Source of the DNA: a virus | Reading direction: 5' to 3' (one strand) | Virus record (IMG/VR): IMGVR_UViG_3300045257_000142 | Location: 1 to 38,263 of that record | Length of the DNA stretch: 38,263 nucleotides | Shown here: positions 24,345 to 38,263 of the stretch, one piece after another | Layout: each line of letters opens with the position of its first letter | How positions within the stretch are numbered: the stretch's first letter is position 1 | The notes under the pieces: model-generated | Databases searched by the model: none | What the model saw: only the letters and a program-made list of their open reading frames with translations | Told to the model about the DNA's origin: nothing | Translations under genes and position numbers: made by a program

Positions 24345-24628
24345 AAAATATCCAAATATTTCTTTTTATTTTTATCGTATTCTAAAGTTTTTAGTGCCTG
24401 CTCTAGTTCGCTTTTAAAAAAATCAGAAATAGTATTAATTGTCATAGTTGAAACAAGACCAACGATTAAGAAATAACTATATTCTTCGTACATATTATTA
24501 TCAATAAAATACCACAAACCAAATATTACAGCTGCAATAAATAAAAATCTAATTCTAGCGTTTAATTTACTGAAAAATCGTATTCTATCTATTTTATTAA
24601 TAATATTTCTTGTAAGTGGTATCATCAT
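24341..24628 (-). CDS. Two-TM membrane protein, candidate immunity protein
   Basis: This 95-aa protein has two hydrophobic segments (about 27-43, IRFLFIAAVIFGLWYFI, and 51-68, SYFLIVGLVSTMTINTIS), a basic N-terminus and a charged C-terminal tail. Small inner-membrane proteins of this size, placed directly after a microcin precursor, are the usual form of class II microcin immunity proteins. Here the start overlaps the stop of the Gly-rich leader peptide gene (TAATG). A holin reading is possible, since length and topology would also fit; the context favours immunity. Confidence 0.55.
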   Translation of the reverse strand: MMIPLTRNIINKIDRIRFFSKLNARIRFLFIAAVIFGLWYFIDNNMYEEYSYFLIVGLVSTMTINTISDFFKSELEQALKTLEYDKNKKKYLDIL

Positions 24629-24933
24629 TATTTTTTATTCTCTTTCCAAGCGTGATATGCCTCTGAATACATAAATGCAAATGCTGTACCAGTTCCAGCT
24701 ATGCTTCCACCAGCGATGCAACCATAAAGACCGCCTGTTCTTGCTCCATTTACACATCCAAAAACAGCCGCATTACTCGCTAATATTGCAGCCAATGTCC
24801 AGTCAGTATTACTATATGGATCTACTCTTGGTGTAGCAACGTAATGATTGCTGGTATCTACAAACTCACAGGTATAAATGTTACGTACTGCACCAGATAT
24901 GGATTTTAAATATTTATTTTCTAAAATTCTCAT
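24628..24933 (-). CDS. Class II microcin-like precursor peptide
   Basis: This 101-aa protein begins MRILENKYLKSISGA, which matches the N-terminal leader pattern of Gram-negative class II microcins: MRxL/I at the start and a cleavage site of SGG or SGA at residues 13-15 (microcin H47 uses ISGA, colicin V VSGG). The proposed mature part (16-101) holds a hydrophobic Gly/Ala-rich stretch (about 47-88: AAILASNAAVFG, TGGLYGCIAGGSIAGTG) as in colicin V, and three cysteines (22, 60, 72). ATGA overlap with the upstream leader gene and TAATG overlap with the 2-TM gene give one coupled unit. No export ABC transporter gene is in the window. Confidence 0.58.
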   Translation of the reverse strand: MRILENKYLKSISGAVRNIYTCEFVDTSNHYVATPRVDPYSNTDWTLAAILASNAAVFGCVNGARTGGLYGCIAGGSIAGTGTAFAFMYSEAYHAWKENKK

Positions 24934-25187
24934 GCTGTAAACATCTCCGGGTATAGAGATTTCATTACATGTAAATGATATTGGTAAGCCATCATATCCG
25001 ATTGCATGCTTCTAAAGCTTTCACCGGCATCAATTCTTTTTTGAAATTCTGGAGGTAAGCTTCCATCATATTGCATCGTGTATGCAACATATGAATATTC
25101 TTTAAAATTAGATTTAGACTCTTCTGTATATGTCATATTGACAGCGCCAGATACAAACTTGGTTTCTTCTATATTTAGTAAATTCAT
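24930..25187 (-). CDS. Second SGA-leader peptide, microcin-like partner
   Basis: This 85-aa protein begins MNLLNIEETKFVSGAV, and the leader lines up with that of the next gene (ILENKYLKSISGAV), so both may be processed after SGA by the same C39-type protease. The rest (16-85) is polar, Tyr/Met-rich and acidic, without a membrane segment, so on its own it does not look pore-forming. It may be the second peptide of a two-peptide system, or a modified or escort peptide. Ribosome site AAGGATT. Confidence 0.52.
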   Translation of the reverse strand: MNLLNIEETKFVSGAVNMTYTEESKSNFKEYSYVAYTMQYDGSLPPEFQKRIDAGESFRSMQSDMMAYQYHLHVMKSLYPEMFTA

Positions 25188-32405: not shown

Positions 32406-32448
32406 AAATCACTACTCAATAATTAATTATTTTATTTTAGAGTTAGCT

Positions 32449-32477
32449 TTGTGATAAAGTCTTAATACATATATACA
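32449..32477 (+). promoter_or_regulatory. Promoter candidate before the small-terminase operon
   Basis: TTGTGA (32449-32454) and TATACA (32472-32477) are 17 bases apart, and the start codon at 32493 is near the expected transcript start. It would begin transcription of the small-terminase, RNA-polymerase-mimic and terL operon. A 14-bp AT palindrome lies just upstream. Confidence 0.5.
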
Positions 32478-32492
32478 AAATAGGGAAATTTT

Positions 32493-32813
32493 ATGGATTT
32501 AAGAAAAGGTTCAGAAGTTAAAGAAGGGAAAAGGCGCTGTATTCGTTGTAGAGGCCGAAAGAAGTTATATAAGACAAATGGTGGATGGTCTTTCGAAAAC
32601 TCGGGTGGAACATTAACGGACTGCATTTTATGCATGGGTACAGGGTTGATAGACCTTCATAAGGATGGGGTTGAACTTATTTGTGGTTCCGACCTAATTC
32701 CTATTTCTAAAGAAACGAGATTAAAATTGGAGAAAGAAGATGCCAAAGAATCCAAAAAACGAAGAAAGCCAGCCAAAGAAAAAGAAGTCTCCGCCTTCGA
32801 CAAAGAATACTGA
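32493..32813 (+). CDS. DnaJ-type zinc-finger protein
   Basis: This 106-aa protein has CIRCRGRKKLY (Cys16, Cys19) and CILCMGTG (Cys44, Cys47), a pair of CxxCxGxG-like knuckles as in the DnaJ zinc finger, in a small phage context. A long charged, Lys-rich tail follows. The last 74 nt overlap the small terminase gene. It may bind nucleic acid or a partner protein; similar short zinc proteins occur near phage packaging genes. Confidence 0.68.
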   Translation: MDLRKGSEVKEGKRRCIRCRGRKKLYKTNGGWSFENSGGTLTDCILCMGTGLIDLHKDGVELICGSDLIPISKETRLKLEKEDAKESKKRRKPAKEKEVSAFDKEY

Positions 32814-33381
32814 ACCAAAAAGAAAGAAAGTACACACAGAAGCCCAAGAAGCTTACTATACGCGTAAGAGCGAAGCCTGTAGGTTACTAAAAGCAGAGAT
32901 AGAGGCCTATTCAAAACCAAAAACAGGTAGACCGTCTATGTTTACAGAAGAACTAGCGGAATATATTTGCGACAGAATTGCTTCTAGTCCAAAGAGTGTA
33001 AAAACATTATGTGCAGAAGATGACCGTATGCCAGACCAATGTAGCATCAACCTTTGGTGCTGGAAATACCCAACCTTCTTCCTCCAATATCAGCTAGCTA
33101 AATCACAACAAGCGCACTGGATGGCTGATGATTGTGAGGAGATTGCGAAAGAAGTTGATTATATTACTGACCAACAAGGCACTCAAAGAGTTGATCCAGG
33201 TTTTATTGCGAGCAGAAGATTAATGGTCGACACAAAAAAATGGCATGCGTCTAAGCTTGCTCCCACTGTGTTCGGAGATAGAAAGGCTGTTGAAGCGCTA
33301 CAGGGTGAGAATGAGAGCATTAAGGCTGAGCTAATGGCTCTTAAGTTGCAACTAGCTGAAGTTAATAAGAAGGAATATTGA
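32740..33381 (+). CDS. Terminase small subunit
   Basis: This 213-aa protein has a basic N-terminus (1-30) and the HTH-containing GRPSMFTEELAEYICDRIASS (63-83). The pattern of a short HTH (SINLWCWKYPTFFLQYQLAKSQQA) and LMVDTKKWHASKLAPTVFGDR (161-181) is typical of the small terminases that recognise pac/cos and give DNA to TerL. A helical Glu/Lys tail ends in KKEY. GGAGAAAGA precedes ATG 32740. Unlike most phages, terL lies 3.75 kb downstream with a block of small genes between. Confidence 0.85.
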   Translation: MPKNPKNEESQPKKKKSPPSTKNTEPKRKKVHTEAQEAYYTRKSEACRLLKAEIEAYSKPKTGRPSMFTEELAEYICDRIASSPKSVKTLCAEDDRMPDQCSINLWCWKYPTFFLQYQLAKSQQAHWMADDCEEIAKEVDYITDQQGTQRVDPGFIASRRLMVDTKKWHASKLAPTVFGDRKAVEALQGENESIKAELMALKLQLAEVNKKEY

Positions 33382-33539
33382 TGGAATTTTTAAACCCAAT
33401 CCAGAAAGGATTTGCAGAAGCATTAAAAGAACTACAAAAACTATATCGCCAGATGGACGATGAAATTGCTGAGATAAAGTATGACAACAAACAACTTCAA
33501 GAAGAGGTAATTAATATAAAACGGAATATGTCTAAATGA
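33381..33539 (+). CDS. 52-aa coiled-coil protein
   Basis: This small helical frame (MEFLNPIQKGFAEALKELQK...) overlaps the small-terminase stop (TGATG) within the repeated AAGGAATATTGATG junction. It has strong heptads and high charge; a small oligomeric or adaptor role is likely. Function unknown. Confidence 0.62.
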   Translation: MEFLNPIQKGFAEALKELQKLYRQMDDEIAEIKYDNKQLQEEVINIKRNMSK

Positions 33540-33551
33540 TAAGGAATACTG

Positions 33552-33881
33552 ATGGGTAACGATGAAGCTTCCGAACCAGATGGAGAATTGCCATGGCGCC
33601 CTACTATTGAAGAGATAGAAGAGGCAATAGAAGAGTTTGACGTATTAGAACATTATGATCACGTTCCGGATGATGACTATGCGGAAATGTCTTATGGATA
33701 CTATAAGCGGATATTAAAGGTTTTCAAATGGTTCAAAGATGAGCACGATAAATATAGAGATTGCGCAATCAGTGCCTGGCGAAAAGAAGATATTCTTCTT
33801 GAAAGAATCAAATGGTTTGAAATAGAGAAAGAACAACTAGAAGAGCAGTTAGAAGAAATAAAAAGGAATATTGATGGTTAA
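33552..33881 (+). CDS. Acidic coiled-coil protein
   Basis: This 109-aa protein is rich in Glu and Asp (PTIEEIEEAIEEFDVLE), with a helical tail (LLERIKWFEIEKEQLEEQLEEIKRN). It is preceded by the AAGGAATACTGATG cassette at 33541-33554, which here is noncoding. It may form a coiled coil with its small neighbours. Confidence 0.6.
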   Translation: MGNDEASEPDGELPWRPTIEEIEEAIEEFDVLEHYDHVPDDDYAEMSYGYYKRILKVFKWFKDEHDKYRDCAISAWRKEDILLERIKWFEIEKEQLEEQLEEIKRNIDG

Positions 33882-34134
33882 CCCAAAATCAGAAAGAGAA
33901 GTCATCAGTGACTACTTCTATGATATAAGAGAAATTTGGAATGATATTGATACATTAGAACGCCAAGCGAGCCAGACATTAAATTTTCTAGGCGATATAA
34001 ATACAAAAAATAAAGAATATGATGGAACGTGGGAAATTCAACCAGATGCTATGGTTGGTCTTGCGCACAGGATTCTTATTAAAATGTCGGCTCTTGCTGA
34101 AAAATACTACAATGAAGAGATTTTTGAAGAATAA
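33874..34134 (+). CDS. 86-aa helical protein
   Basis: The start is ATG 33874, inside the third AAGGAATATTGATG cassette, overlapping the previous gene by 8 nt. It is predicted helical with mixed charge (SEREVISDYFYDIREIWNDI). A TTG start at 33871 would add one residue and is less likely. Function unknown. Confidence 0.6.
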   Translation: MVNPKSEREVISDYFYDIREIWNDIDTLERQASQTLNFLGDINTKNKEYDGTWEIQPDAMVGLAHRILIKMSALAEKYYNEEIFEE

Positions 34135-34146
34135 GAAGGAATATTG

Positions 34147-34308
34147 ATGACTGAAGATAATCTGGCTCAGGCCTTGGTTCATATTGGAAAAGCTTTAGAT
34201 AGGCTTGAAGAGAAATATGAAACTATAACAACTCTTAAATTACAGGTTGCATCATTGATGCAAGACATTAAAAACTTAGAAGAATATATTAAAACCCAGG
34301 AGTACTGA
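34147..34308 (+). CDS. 53-aa coiled-coil protein
   Basis: This short helical frame (MTEDNLAQALVHIGKALDRL...) has an ATG within the fourth junction cassette and a stop in the fifth, where it overlaps the sigma-like gene (TGATG). It resembles the 52-aa protein at 33381 in size and heptad layout; the two may be distant duplicates. Confidence 0.6.
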   Translation: MTEDNLAQALVHIGKALDRLEEKYETITTLKLQVASLMQDIKNLEEYIKTQEY

Positions 34309-34610
34309 TGTTATATGGGATAGAAAGATTTTTTGATGTTTTTAACAAACAGGCGATTTATCTTAATAGTATACCAACTGACAATCAAATGTCATTCATA
34401 TTACCTATTACAACAGACGAAATTAGACTTTTAAAATTAAGATTCAATCAGGATGGTACTTATAAAGATTCTCTTCGATCTATAGGAAAAGAATATGGAG
34501 TTACCGGAGAAAGAATAAGGCAGAGAATAGAAAAAGCATTAAGAAAACTACGACAACCATCCAGAAGTGAAGATTTAATAGGGTTTTTAAATAAAGAAAA
34601 GGAGTGTTGA
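34308..34610 (+). CDS. Sigma-70 region 4-like protein
   Basis: This 100-aa protein is nearly a stand-alone sigma region 4. Residues 36-94 (DEIRLLKLRFNQDG, then LRSIGKEYGVTGERIRQ, EKALRKLRQPSRSEDLIGFL) match the end of RpoD-type sigma factors closely, including the RKLRxPSRSE signature. In the recognition helix, the equivalents of E. coli sigma-70 E585, R588 and Q589 (here E68, R71, Q72) are kept and R584 is Gly67. There is no region 2 or 3, so it cannot melt promoters alone; it may replace or bridge region 4 at -35 or bind the beta-flap. It is coupled to the next gene. Confidence 0.88.
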   Translation: MLYGIERFFDVFNKQAIYLNSIPTDNQMSFILPITTDEIRLLKLRFNQDGTYKDSLRSIGKEYGVTGERIRQRIEKALRKLRQPSRSEDLIGFLNKEKEC

Positions 34611-35374
34611 TGTCTAATGAAATGAGCCTATTAAGCATTGTCGCAGAGGCAGAAGAGCAACTTTATAAGAACATGGGGTCTCAACCTTCCATAGACGATT
34701 TGGCTAGATATATATGGACATCCAAGAGAGAGCTGCAGATATTTCTTATGAGATATAAAGATGAGGCCCCTCTAAAGGATATAGGCTTGGCATTTGATAT
34801 AGGTCCAGACAGAGTTACTCAATTGCTGCATAAATTTTCACATAACTTATTGCAATTTTGTTGCAGAATAAAAAATGATGTTGTGGAAAAAAAATATATT
34901 CCTTTGGGTGGGATAGACGGCCCATTAGATACAAAAGAACATCTCCTGGAGAGAAAAATAAAAAGTTTCACCGAAAGAGTTTCAAAGCTTAGGGCTTTGT
35001 TAGTAAAGATGGAAGAAAAAAACTACAAACTGCATGTGGAATTATCAGATTCAACAGAAGAATTTAATGAGCTTAGCTCTGAATTGATTACCATAAAGAA
35101 TTGTTTTTCTCGTTTGTTTGAAAAAAAAGAAGATGCGAATGTTTCTATTTTTGATAAAGAAATAGATGAATGCGAATTCACAACCAGAGTAAAAAATGGT
35201 TTGCGTGGTGAACAAGTAGGAACAGTAGGTCAGTTAGTTAAAGTAAAAGAGAAGGATCTATTTAAGATTCCCGGCATAGGAAAGAAGTATGTAAGGCAAA
35301 TAAAAGCATTTTTAAATAAAAATGATCTTAAATTAGGAATGGATATGGAAGATGGAAGAGCAGATGAAGAATGA
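34610..35374 (+). CDS. Sigma-like / RNA polymerase alpha-CTD-like fusion protein
   Basis: This 254-aa protein has three parts. The first (about 5-85: EAEEQLYKNMGSQPSIDDLARYIW, then LKDIGLAFDIGPDRVTQLL) is sigma region 3/4-like. The second (105-170) is a coiled coil. The third (181-245, FDKEIDECEFTTRVKNGLRG, LVKVKEKDLFKIPGIGKKYV, IKAFLNKNDLKLGM) follows E. coli alpha-CTD over its whole length. R193, N196, G224 and K226 line up with the DNA-contact residues R265, N268, G296 and K298. No other phage protein with this fusion is known to me. The start is ATG 34610 in the last junction cassette. Confidence 0.85.
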   Translation: MSNEMSLLSIVAEAEEQLYKNMGSQPSIDDLARYIWTSKRELQIFLMRYKDEAPLKDIGLAFDIGPDRVTQLLHKFSHNLLQFCCRIKNDVVEKKYIPLGGIDGPLDTKEHLLERKIKSFTERVSKLRALLVKMEEKNYKLHVELSDSTEEFNELSSELITIKNCFSRLFEKKEDANVSIFDKEIDECEFTTRVKNGLRGEQVGTVGQLVKVKEKDLFKIPGIGKKYVRQIKAFLNKNDLKLGMDMEDGRADEE

Positions 35375-35816
35375 GATTAAGAAGAAGCATTTTCATATAG
35401 ATTCTATGAAATTTAAACACATAGAATGGGACGAAGAAGACTGGGGTATTAGTTTAAAGATATCTGAAAAAGAAGACGTTAATAATATAACAATTCCTAT
35501 ATTGTCAGAGCTGAATTATGCTATGTCAAGATTAGAGGATCTTTATAAATTTCTTGGGGAAGTCATAGATAGAAAAACCGGGAAATCTAATGGGGCGCAA
35601 TTAAAACATTTTAGATGGTTAATTGAATCTATGTCGGACACAATTGATAAAGCTTACCAAATCCCCAGCAAACAAGCCCTTATCAATACAATAAAAGAAT
35701 GCCTTGACACCCTGGACTTGGTAGACGAAGAAAAAGAAAGATGGCAAAAGAGAGCATTTGCACTAGAAGATAAATATGAACCAGATGAAGATTATGAAGA
35801 GGATGAAGATGACTAA
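35352..35816 (+). CDS. 154-aa acidic protein of the packaging/transcription operon
   Basis: This protein has a basic N-terminus (MKNEIKKKHFHIDSMKFKHIEWDEEDW) and a very acidic tail (EPDEDYEEDEDD). It overlaps the fusion gene by 23 nt. ATG 35352 gives 154 aa; ATG 35364 gives 150 aa and has GGAAGAG just upstream, so that start is possible as well. The acidic tail could contact a basic surface of RNA polymerase or DNA-binding proteins; function unknown. Confidence 0.6.
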   Translation: MEEQMKNEIKKKHFHIDSMKFKHIEWDEEDWGISLKISEKEDVNNITIPILSELNYAMSRLEDLYKFLGEVIDRKTGKSNGAQLKHFRWLIESMSDTIDKAYQIPSKQALINTIKECLDTLDLVDEEKERWQKRAFALEDKYEPDEDYEEDEDD

Positions 35817-36195
35817 GGAAGAAAAGATTATAGCCCTACACCAAGAGCTAAATGAAGAATATGCAAAACTATCAGAAACATCCCTAAGTGATATTAGTGA
35901 ATATGATGATGAAGACTGGAAGACATTGCGCATAGAGTGCGGAAGTGAAAAGGATATTATGCCAGCCTTTAAATGGGCCAACAGGACAATTACTGACCAT
36001 TTCTCCGATAAGTTCACTAAGCCAGGAGTTTACGATATCCTTTTCTGTGTTAGCTATCGTGGAGAGTTTGATAACTCAGAAGAAGCTAATCAAAATAGAG
36101 CTAAGATAAAGGCTGCTCAGGAACTGATTAGCAACAAAGCCAAAGTTGAAATGGCAAAGATTGAGGCTGAATATTCAGAAGTGGAGCAACACTAA
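35809..36195 (+). CDS. 128-aa helical protein
   Basis: The start is ATG 35809, with AGAGG six bases before it; an upstream ATG at 35776 lies deep in the previous gene. The middle (DIMPAFKWANRTITDHFSDK) is mixed, and the C-terminal half is a charged helix (AKIKAAQELISNKAKVEMAK). It overlaps the genes on both sides. No family recognised. Confidence 0.6.
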   Translation: MTKEEKIIALHQELNEEYAKLSETSLSDISEYDDEDWKTLRIECGSEKDIMPAFKWANRTITDHFSDKFTKPGVYDILFCVSYRGEFDNSEEANQNRAKIKAAQELISNKAKVEMAKIEAEYSEVEQH

Positions 36196-36743: not shown

Positions 36744-37136
36744 ATGGTAGCCTTAAAAGTACCAAAAATAAATCCTTTCCATATGAATCCAATTGAACAT
36801 CTTGGATTTCCTAAAGATATATTGGAATTCTTGAAGAAGGCTAATATATTGCTTGTTGGAGACTTGCTTATACATAGAAAGCGGGAAGTACTTAGAATTC
36901 CAGGGATAGCAAAAACTAGATTTAAAAGAATTGAAATGATTCTAAGTGCGCACAAGTTAATGTTGTCAGAATCATATGAGAATGGCGCAGGAAGATTTGG
37001 GTACATACATCCAGAATATCATACGTGGGATCATTCTGTAACTATAGTATGGCCGCCAGATATTCCAGGACGGAAGAAAACTTTCAAGGAGATATATGTG
37101 GATTGTGTTGTAGAGGGGATAGTTAATTATGTATGA
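36744..37136 (+). CDS. Second alpha-CTD-like protein, DNA-contact residues lost
   Basis: This 130-aa protein has residues 15-74 (NPIEHLGFPKDILEFLKKAN, LLVGDLLIHRKREVLRIPGI, FKRIEMILSAHKLML) following the RNA polymerase alpha-CTD pattern. The places of E. coli R265, N268, G296 and K298 are Asp, Glu, Ala and Thr, so normal UP-element binding is unlikely. A unique C-terminal part (75-130, Trp/Pro/His-rich) follows. It may bind partner proteins, or compete with the host domain. The stop overlaps the terL start (ATGA). Confidence 0.78.
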   Translation: MVALKVPKINPFHMNPIEHLGFPKDILEFLKKANILLVGDLLIHRKREVLRIPGIAKTRFKRIEMILSAHKLMLSESYENGAGRFGYIHPEYHTWDHSVTIVWPPDIPGRKKTFKEIYVDCVVEGIVNYV

Positions 37137-38263
37137 AGGTTGATATAGAACGAGAAACCTTAGTTGCAGAGCTTCAGGGAAGTCTACTAGAGTTCTGTAA
37201 AGTATTTTACCCTCTCCTCACTGGACGAGATTTTATTATATCTGTACCTATTGGGAGAGAACCACATGCGGTCACGATATCACGGGCTCTTACGAGAGCT
37301 GCCAGGCTTCAAATACCTTCGCAGAGACTTATTATCAACGTCCCACCCGGACATGGTAAGTCAACCTTCCTATGTATGTGGGTGGCTTGGACTCTTTCTA
37401 AGTATCCTGACTCTCGTTATCTTTATATCTCATATTCTAAATCATTGGCCGCCAAGCATACTGAGACTATTAAACGTATTATTGGCCTTCGTCATTACAA
37501 GTATCTATTCGATGTATCTATTCGATGGGATAGTAAGGCGAAGGAATTCTTCCAGACTACTCACGGGGGTTCTATTGCTGCTTTTGGTTCAGCTGGTGCT
37601 ATCGTGGGACAGGATGGTGGCTTGCCTGGCTTAGACCGATTCTCTGGGGCCGTAATTATGGATGATAGTCATAAGATAGACGAGGCTCATTCAAATACAA
37701 TTCGTGAAGGTGTTATTGAGAACTATCGTGAAACAATCCAGCAGCGTGCTCGCGGCGTTAATGTACCCTACATTTATATTGGTCAGCGTGTACATGAGGC
37801 TGACTTAGCCGCGTACCTTATTGATGGTAAGGATGGATACGAATGGGAGAAGGTTATATTACAAAGCATTGACTCACTTGGTAATGCATTATATCCAGAA
37901 GCTTTTCCATTAGAATCATTGCTCATCAAACAAGACAAAGACCCCTACGTTTTCGCAAGCCAGTTTCAACAGAATCCCATACCTGCCGGAGGTGGATTAT
38001 TTAAACCAGATTGGTTCATTACCTTAGATGAAGAACCAGAGATGTTAATTACATTTATTACATGTGACACAGCCGAGACCGATAAAAATTGGAACGATTC
38101 TACGGTGTTCTCTTTTTGGGGAGTTTACCAGATAACTAATTTTGGAAAAGTATCAGGAGAACTTGGTCTTCATTGGCTCGACACGCTTGAAATCCGAGTT
38201 GAACCAAAGGACTTAAAAGATTCCTTTATAGATTTTTACACTGAGTGCACACGACACAGGATT
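37133..38263 (+). CDS. terL: Terminase large subunit, N-terminal part (runs on into 2-559)
   Basis: These 377 codons open at the right edge continue at base 128 of the window. Walker A VPPGHGKST (70-78), Walker B AVIMDD (173-178) and the IYIGQRV coupling segment (214-220) form the ATPase. CDTAET (311-316, D312) opens the RNase H-like nuclease. GAGGGG lies upstream and the start overlaps the previous stop (ATGA). It is of the P22/Sf6-like headful or related type, but the packaging mode cannot be settled from sequence alone. Joined, the protein is 520 aa. Confidence 0.95.
   Translation, partial: MKVDIERETLVAELQGSLLEFCKVFYPLLTGRDFIISVPIGREPHAVTISRALTRAARLQIPSQRLIINVPPGHGKSTFLCMWVAWTLSKYPDSRYLYISYSKSLAAKHTETIKRIIGLRHYKYLFDVSIRWDSKAKEFFQTTHGGSIAAFGSAGAIVGQDGGLPGLDRFSGAVIMDDSHKIDEAHSNTIREGVIENYRETIQQRARGVNVPYIYIGQRVHEADLAAYLIDGKDGYEWEKVILQSIDSLGNALYPEAFPLESLLIKQDKDPYVFASQFQQNPIPAGGGLFKPDWFITLDEEPEMLITFITCDTAETDKNWNDSTVFSFWGVYQITNFGKVSGELGLHWLDTLEIRVEPKDLKDSFIDFYTECTRHRI
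38137..38263. repeat. 127-bp terminal direct repeat (right copy)
   Basis: Identical to bases 1-127 and inside terL; see the left copy. Removing one copy gives a 38,136-bp circle. Confidence 0.95.

Follow-up and report, generated by a model that had tools for sequence, protein, structure and literature searches.

What might an isolated copy of sigma-70 region 4 do in a phage genome, where it adjoins a gene for a protein with the C-terminal domain of the RNA polymerase alpha subunit (alpha-CTD)? The window, that is, the whole stretch of 38,263 nucleotides analyzed here, represents a phage genome that is complete and circularly permuted: the same 127 bases stand at both of its ends, and the large terminase gene spans this 127-bp terminal repeat. 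Its portal, large terminase, major head, and RecT/RecE-like proteins indicate a small tailed phage, for which annotated phages gave just distant large-terminase matches (about 30% identity). Relatives belonging to the same clade (L003, L005, etc.) were gathered by portal and terminase searches. A search for the host returned three contigs that had been binned, probably wrongly, into MAGs from unrelated phyla.

The region 4 gene, here called s4, is located in a variable block flanked by the genes of the small and large terminase subunits (Table 1). The ribosome-binding context AAGGAATA(T/C)TGATG is repeated ahead of four consecutive small genes (positions 33381 to 34160). Elsewhere in the window, two small proteins encoded on the minus strand (24628 to 24933 and 24930 to 25187) have a double-glycine-leader-like start and are possibly bacteriocin-like.

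TABLE 1 Coordinates of s4 and of the features around it in the window
Feature	Position	Strand	Basis or remark
Conserved putative operon promoter, AGTTAGCTTTG-TGA-TAAAGT	32441..32460	+	Extended -10, no -35 hexamer, A/T-rich upstream
Terminase small subunit	32740..33381	+	Upstream boundary of variable block
Stand-alone sigma-70 region 4 protein (s4), 100 aa	34308..34610	+	Profile match and alignment; Gly67 codon at 34506-34508
s4'-coiled coil-alpha-CTD protein, 254 aa	34610..35374	+	Adjoins s4
s4', degenerate region-4-like domain at N terminus of 254-aa protein	34724..34834	+	22.6 bits, subthreshold
Predicted long helix (coiled coil) separating s4' and alpha-CTD	34934..35116	+	AlphaFold2, helix 109-169
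RNA polymerase alpha-CTD domain of 254-aa protein	35126..35317	+	Profile, alignment, structure comparison
Core small protein of clade	35809..36195	+	Joined to s4 in L028, to DnaG zinc ribbon in L005
Second alpha-CTD-like protein	36744..37136	+	265 position without Arg, so that this DNA-binding residue is lost; 85% conservation in L003
Terminase large subunit, N-terminal part	37133..38263, continuing at 1-559 across 127-bp repeat	+	Downstream boundary of variable block

A stand-alone region 4 and its alpha-CTD neighbor

The s4 open reading frame is intact, with an ATG start and an SD-like AGGAG just 5' of it, and its product scored above the curated cutoff of the Pfam family Sigma70_r4 (PF04545; 39.9 bits versus 24.1, E value of 2.9e-10), which confirms the stand-alone region 4 proposed in an earlier note made from the sequence alone. 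The closest solved structures were RpoD region 4 chains (E value of about 1e-11). In the alignment to Escherichia coli sigma-70, 31 of 64 residues were identical, with homology over regions 4.1 and 4.2 and the C-terminal tail, and the features that the note had read in the letters were all found: the ERIRQ helix, the RKLRQPSRSE signature (within an LRKLRxPSRSE tail), and a glycine opposite R584 of sigma-70, which is Gly67. Around it, T583, E585, R586, R588, and Q589 are retained, as is the K593/R596/R599/R603 face. Thus, s4 differs from RpoD region 4 in standing alone, without regions 1 to 3, in having Gly for R584, and in having LRQP for LRHP.

No Sigma70_r2 match was detected at an E value of ≤1 in s4, the window, or 22 relatives, by a search that was positive for control genomes and that could miss a region-2-type partner as diverged as gp55; the statement that s4 is not a whole sigma factor therefore stands. 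The opposite case, in which close homologues are full-length sigma factors and the window copy is truncated by a frameshift, was excluded, since region 2 was found nowhere in this set and the homologues in L005, L006, and L028 are not full-length sigma factors but are equally short or fused. Because relatives carry s4 as a stand-alone gene or in fusions, it is not a broken sigma factor. Comparison of the window with L006 indicated purifying selection (pN/pS ratio of 0.35; 95% interval, 0.22 to 0.52).

The stop codon of s4 overlaps the start of the next gene at 34610 (TGATG), so that the overlap on which translational coupling had been proposed is real, but it is not specific: 10 of the 13 adjacent gene pairs in the operon overlap, and the junction is therefore no argument for cooperation between s4 and the alpha-CTD protein. 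The cooperation itself found better grounds in L006, where sigma-4, coiled coil, and alpha-CTD lie within one 259-amino-acid open reading frame and are made as one polypeptide. Over its N-terminal 98 amino acids it shares 68% identity with the window s4, and over its C-terminal half it shares 42% with the tail of the 254-amino-acid neighbor. This fusion, known from one contig, is a direct piece of evidence, and the strongest one, that sigma-4 and alpha-CTD are functionally linked. No phage sigma-4/alpha-CTD fusion turned up in the phage collection, in PHROGs, or in the open-access literature searched.

The assignment of the neighbor's alpha-CTD (PF03118) was also clear, with 46.5 bits against a curated cutoff of 23.8, and Foldseek matched the domain to alpha-CTD chains of E. 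coli with a TM score of about 0.9. It has the same fold as the RNA polymerase domain and the same DNA-binding residues (the equivalents of R265, N268, G296, and K298 are retained, and positions 259 and 261 are acidic), but in the window an alpha subunit is not what carries it; it is attached to a coiled coil that also bears a sigma-4-like domain. This second, degenerate region-4-like domain (s4') was missed in the earlier note; its equivalents are L005:5394-5900 and the broken gene of L003, an s4'-like gene over two frames (L003:5316-5664; region 4 match of 29.9 bits) that may reflect decay, an assembly error, or frameshifting. For both the L006 fusion and the window protein, AlphaFold gave a region-4-like helical bundle, a long helix (at residues 109 to 182 in L006, matching that of the window), and an alpha-CTD fold; since pTM was low for both, the arrangement of these domains is not predicted. 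In a tblastn search against annotated phages, most matches of the alpha-CTD protein were RpoA genes from records that are bacterial or contaminants; one further match was an unannotated record of a fecal phage. In L051, L086, and L095, alpha-CTD-like genes occupy a second location, between the large terminase subunit and the portal; their products keep the Arg265 position, and those of L086 and L095 have a C-terminal helical part.

Among the relatives, s4 occurs as a 111-amino-acid stand-alone gene or in fusions, with the alpha-CTD in L006 and with the core small protein in L028, and in L005, s4, alpha-CTD, and s4' are three adjacent genes. L026/L027 and L030 have none of the module genes between their terminase genes. 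A search for homologues of s4 or of the coiled-coil alpha-CTD part retrieved only L006, L005, and L028, together with a doubtful match in L108, with unrelated surroundings. In all four phage s4 copies, LRQP replaces the LRHP of E. coli RpoD, and the N-terminal extension has E6 and F8; these common features fit a common origin of the four copies, and the large-terminase tree is compatible with one origin followed by losses. Larger proteins with a full region 4 at the end (63.9 bits in L097) and an unrelated N-terminal part are found in L097:3144-3770 and L083:1-414.

Recognition helix, flap helix, and the operon promoter

We counted retained residues in the alignment to E. coli sigma-70. For the -35 element we used a list of 11 contacts in region 4.2, whose positions beyond R584, E585, and R588 we take to be contacts as well; 8 of them are retained in the window, 10 in both L005 and L028, and 4 in L006. 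The flap-helix residues L598, E605, L607, F610, and L611 are all present in the window, L005, and L028, and four of the five are present in L006, against one of five in the s4' copies. R584, E585, and R588 are documented -35 contacts (PMC2613000), and H5 is a flap-binding part of sigma (PMC2988021). Judged from these alignments, the conserved property of s4 is its flap-facing C-terminal helix and not its -35 preference, because the recognition helix is complete in two relatives and wholly lost in one. For the same reason, the "edited -35 recognition" of the earlier note holds as regards the glycine but is weakened as the key feature of the protein.

The face toward the alpha-CTD offers a further comparison. 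In the host, D259 and E261 of alpha touch R603 of sigma (PMC5511352). The window s4 keeps R603, and positions 259 and 261 of the window alpha-CTD are acidic; the tethered domains of L006 differ on both faces (R603S, with K at 259 and at 261). The charges of the window pair could touch as they do in the host; with three examples, this is at most suggestive.

Upstream of the operon, we found one conserved element (consensus, AGTYAGCTTTG-TGA-TAAAGT), which we infer to be a promoter because of this consensus and its conservation; it is the only conserved promoter of the operon. The motif is conserved in seven clade members, s4-less ones included. Six of the seven are without a -35 hexamer of 4/6 or better, and six of the seven have a very A/T-rich UP region. 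A family of promoters with this motif was excluded, as the window genome has a single site, and a generic sigma-70 promoter scan of the window gave no excess over shuffled sequences (39 versus 38.4). A -35 preference matched to R584G was also ruled out, since the promoter does not covary with the recognition helix.

These data bear on the idea, in line with the earlier note, that s4 is a true promoter reader, a sigma-4 of changed -31 specificity that, with the alpha-CTD, recruits polymerase to phage promoters with altered -35/UP elements. E585, R588, and Q589 of s4 and R265, N268, and K298 of the alpha-CTD are kept, substitutions of R584 in sigma-70 relax or change specificity at -31 (PMC2613000), and the window, L003, L005, and L006 all have the A/T-rich TTATTT at the -35 position. 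However, the same promoter is found in L005, with its full R584 helix, and in L006, with the helix erased; it exists in a single copy in the genome and has no conserved -35 hexamer. We consider this explanation unlikely.

Possible roles on the host polymerase

Phages are known to hijack the polymerase of the host by means of small, unrelated proteins whose targets are sigma-4, alpha, or the flap. The reading that we tentatively prefer, a possibility somewhat short of an even bet, is that s4 is a sigma-4 mimic that docks on the host beta-flap with its alpha-CTD-like partner and biases the polymerase away from -35/UP promoters and toward the late operon. The phage would have captured two promoter-reading pieces of the bacterial RNA polymerase, sigma region 4 and the alpha-CTD, and both would be made from the late operon and act as an accessory pair. 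Most likely, s4 would dock on the flap via its conserved C-terminal helix, in competition with host sigma region 4, and would bring along the coiled-coil alpha-CTD protein (covalently in L006), which could hold upstream A/T-rich DNA. Losses would fall on the host promoters that depend on -35 and UP contacts, and the late operon of the phage, with its extended -10, A/T-rich upstream DNA, and no -35 element, would be spared or favored. We infer the flap binding, the competition with host sigma, the physical association of the two proteins of the window phage, and the change in promoter choice.

Some observations speak against this flap-docking reading. L003, L026/L027, and L030 keep the same promoter without an intact s4, so s4 is not required by the operon promoter, and s4 is encoded inside the very operon whose promoter it would favor. 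Most -35 contacts are kept in the window s4, which fits DNA reading equally well, and the position of the block between terminase genes, like that of the alpha-CTD-like genes between terminase and portal, fits a role in packaging.

Such a role, for which sigma-4 and alpha-CTD would have been recruited simply to bind DNA in packaging or in the regulation of terminase and would do nothing at the polymerase, seems to us quite improbable. The genes sit between the small and large terminase subunits in relatives as in the window, and the second location in L051, L086, and L095 is likewise next to the terminase, but the s4 of L006 keeps its flap helix although its DNA-reading helix is lost, and packaging does not need these genes, because phages of the same clade are without them. 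Least probable is that the proteins are inhibitors or decoys only, isolated pieces of host machines that poison the host polymerase (and, in relatives, the primase) and so shut off the host, without redirecting the polymerase: the variable block of L005 and L028 does hold DnaG zinc-ribbon proteins and therefore collects isolated host-machine domains, but the location in the late operon suggests expression too late for shutoff, and there is no sign of toxicity. These ribbons are of the CHC2 type (L005:7679-8473, 77.5 bits; L028:6769-7458, 88.1 bits), and the one in L005 forms a fusion with the clade's core small protein.

Among known systems, T4 gp33 and AsiA are the closest working analogues, neither being homologous to sigma-4. 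Like s4, which we propose in the place of sigma-4 on the flap, gp33 is a small phage protein; it is a flap-bound sigma-4 mimic in late transcription that reads no DNA sequence (PMC2988020). However, gp33 does not resemble sigma in sequence, and its partners are gp55 and the gp45 clamp, whereas s4 is a true sigma-4 homologue with an alpha-CTD partner and with no region-2 partner found in the genome. AsiA blocks the contacts of sigma-4 with -35 DNA and the flap, and TGn/-10 promoters are immune to it (PMC2988021). The same outcome would be expected here, with -35-dependent promoters losing and extended -10 promoters spared, but AsiA binds and remodels host sigma-4, whereas s4 is a copy of sigma-4 itself, and we saw no homologue of AsiA or MotA. 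SigO/RsoA of Bacillus subtilis is a two-subunit sigma factor with sigma regions on separate polypeptides; for s4, no separate region-2 subunit was found in the window with Sigma70_r2.

A further proposal, which we regard as rather doubtful, is that sigma region 4 and alpha-CTD, which are in contact on natural promoters, have been transferred as the complete upstream promoter-reading head of bacterial RNA polymerase to a separate coiled-coil module, swappable onto the host polymerase by a phage without a sigma factor of its own. In a phage that duplicates and links sigma-4 and alpha-CTD, nature would have provided a minimal form of the -35/UP reading head. With it, one could test whether region 4 is able to work in trans when the sigma of the polymerase retains region 2, and how the work is divided among sigma-4, flap, and alpha-CTD contacts, with the relatives as a natural mutant series in which the recognition helix goes from intact to erased.
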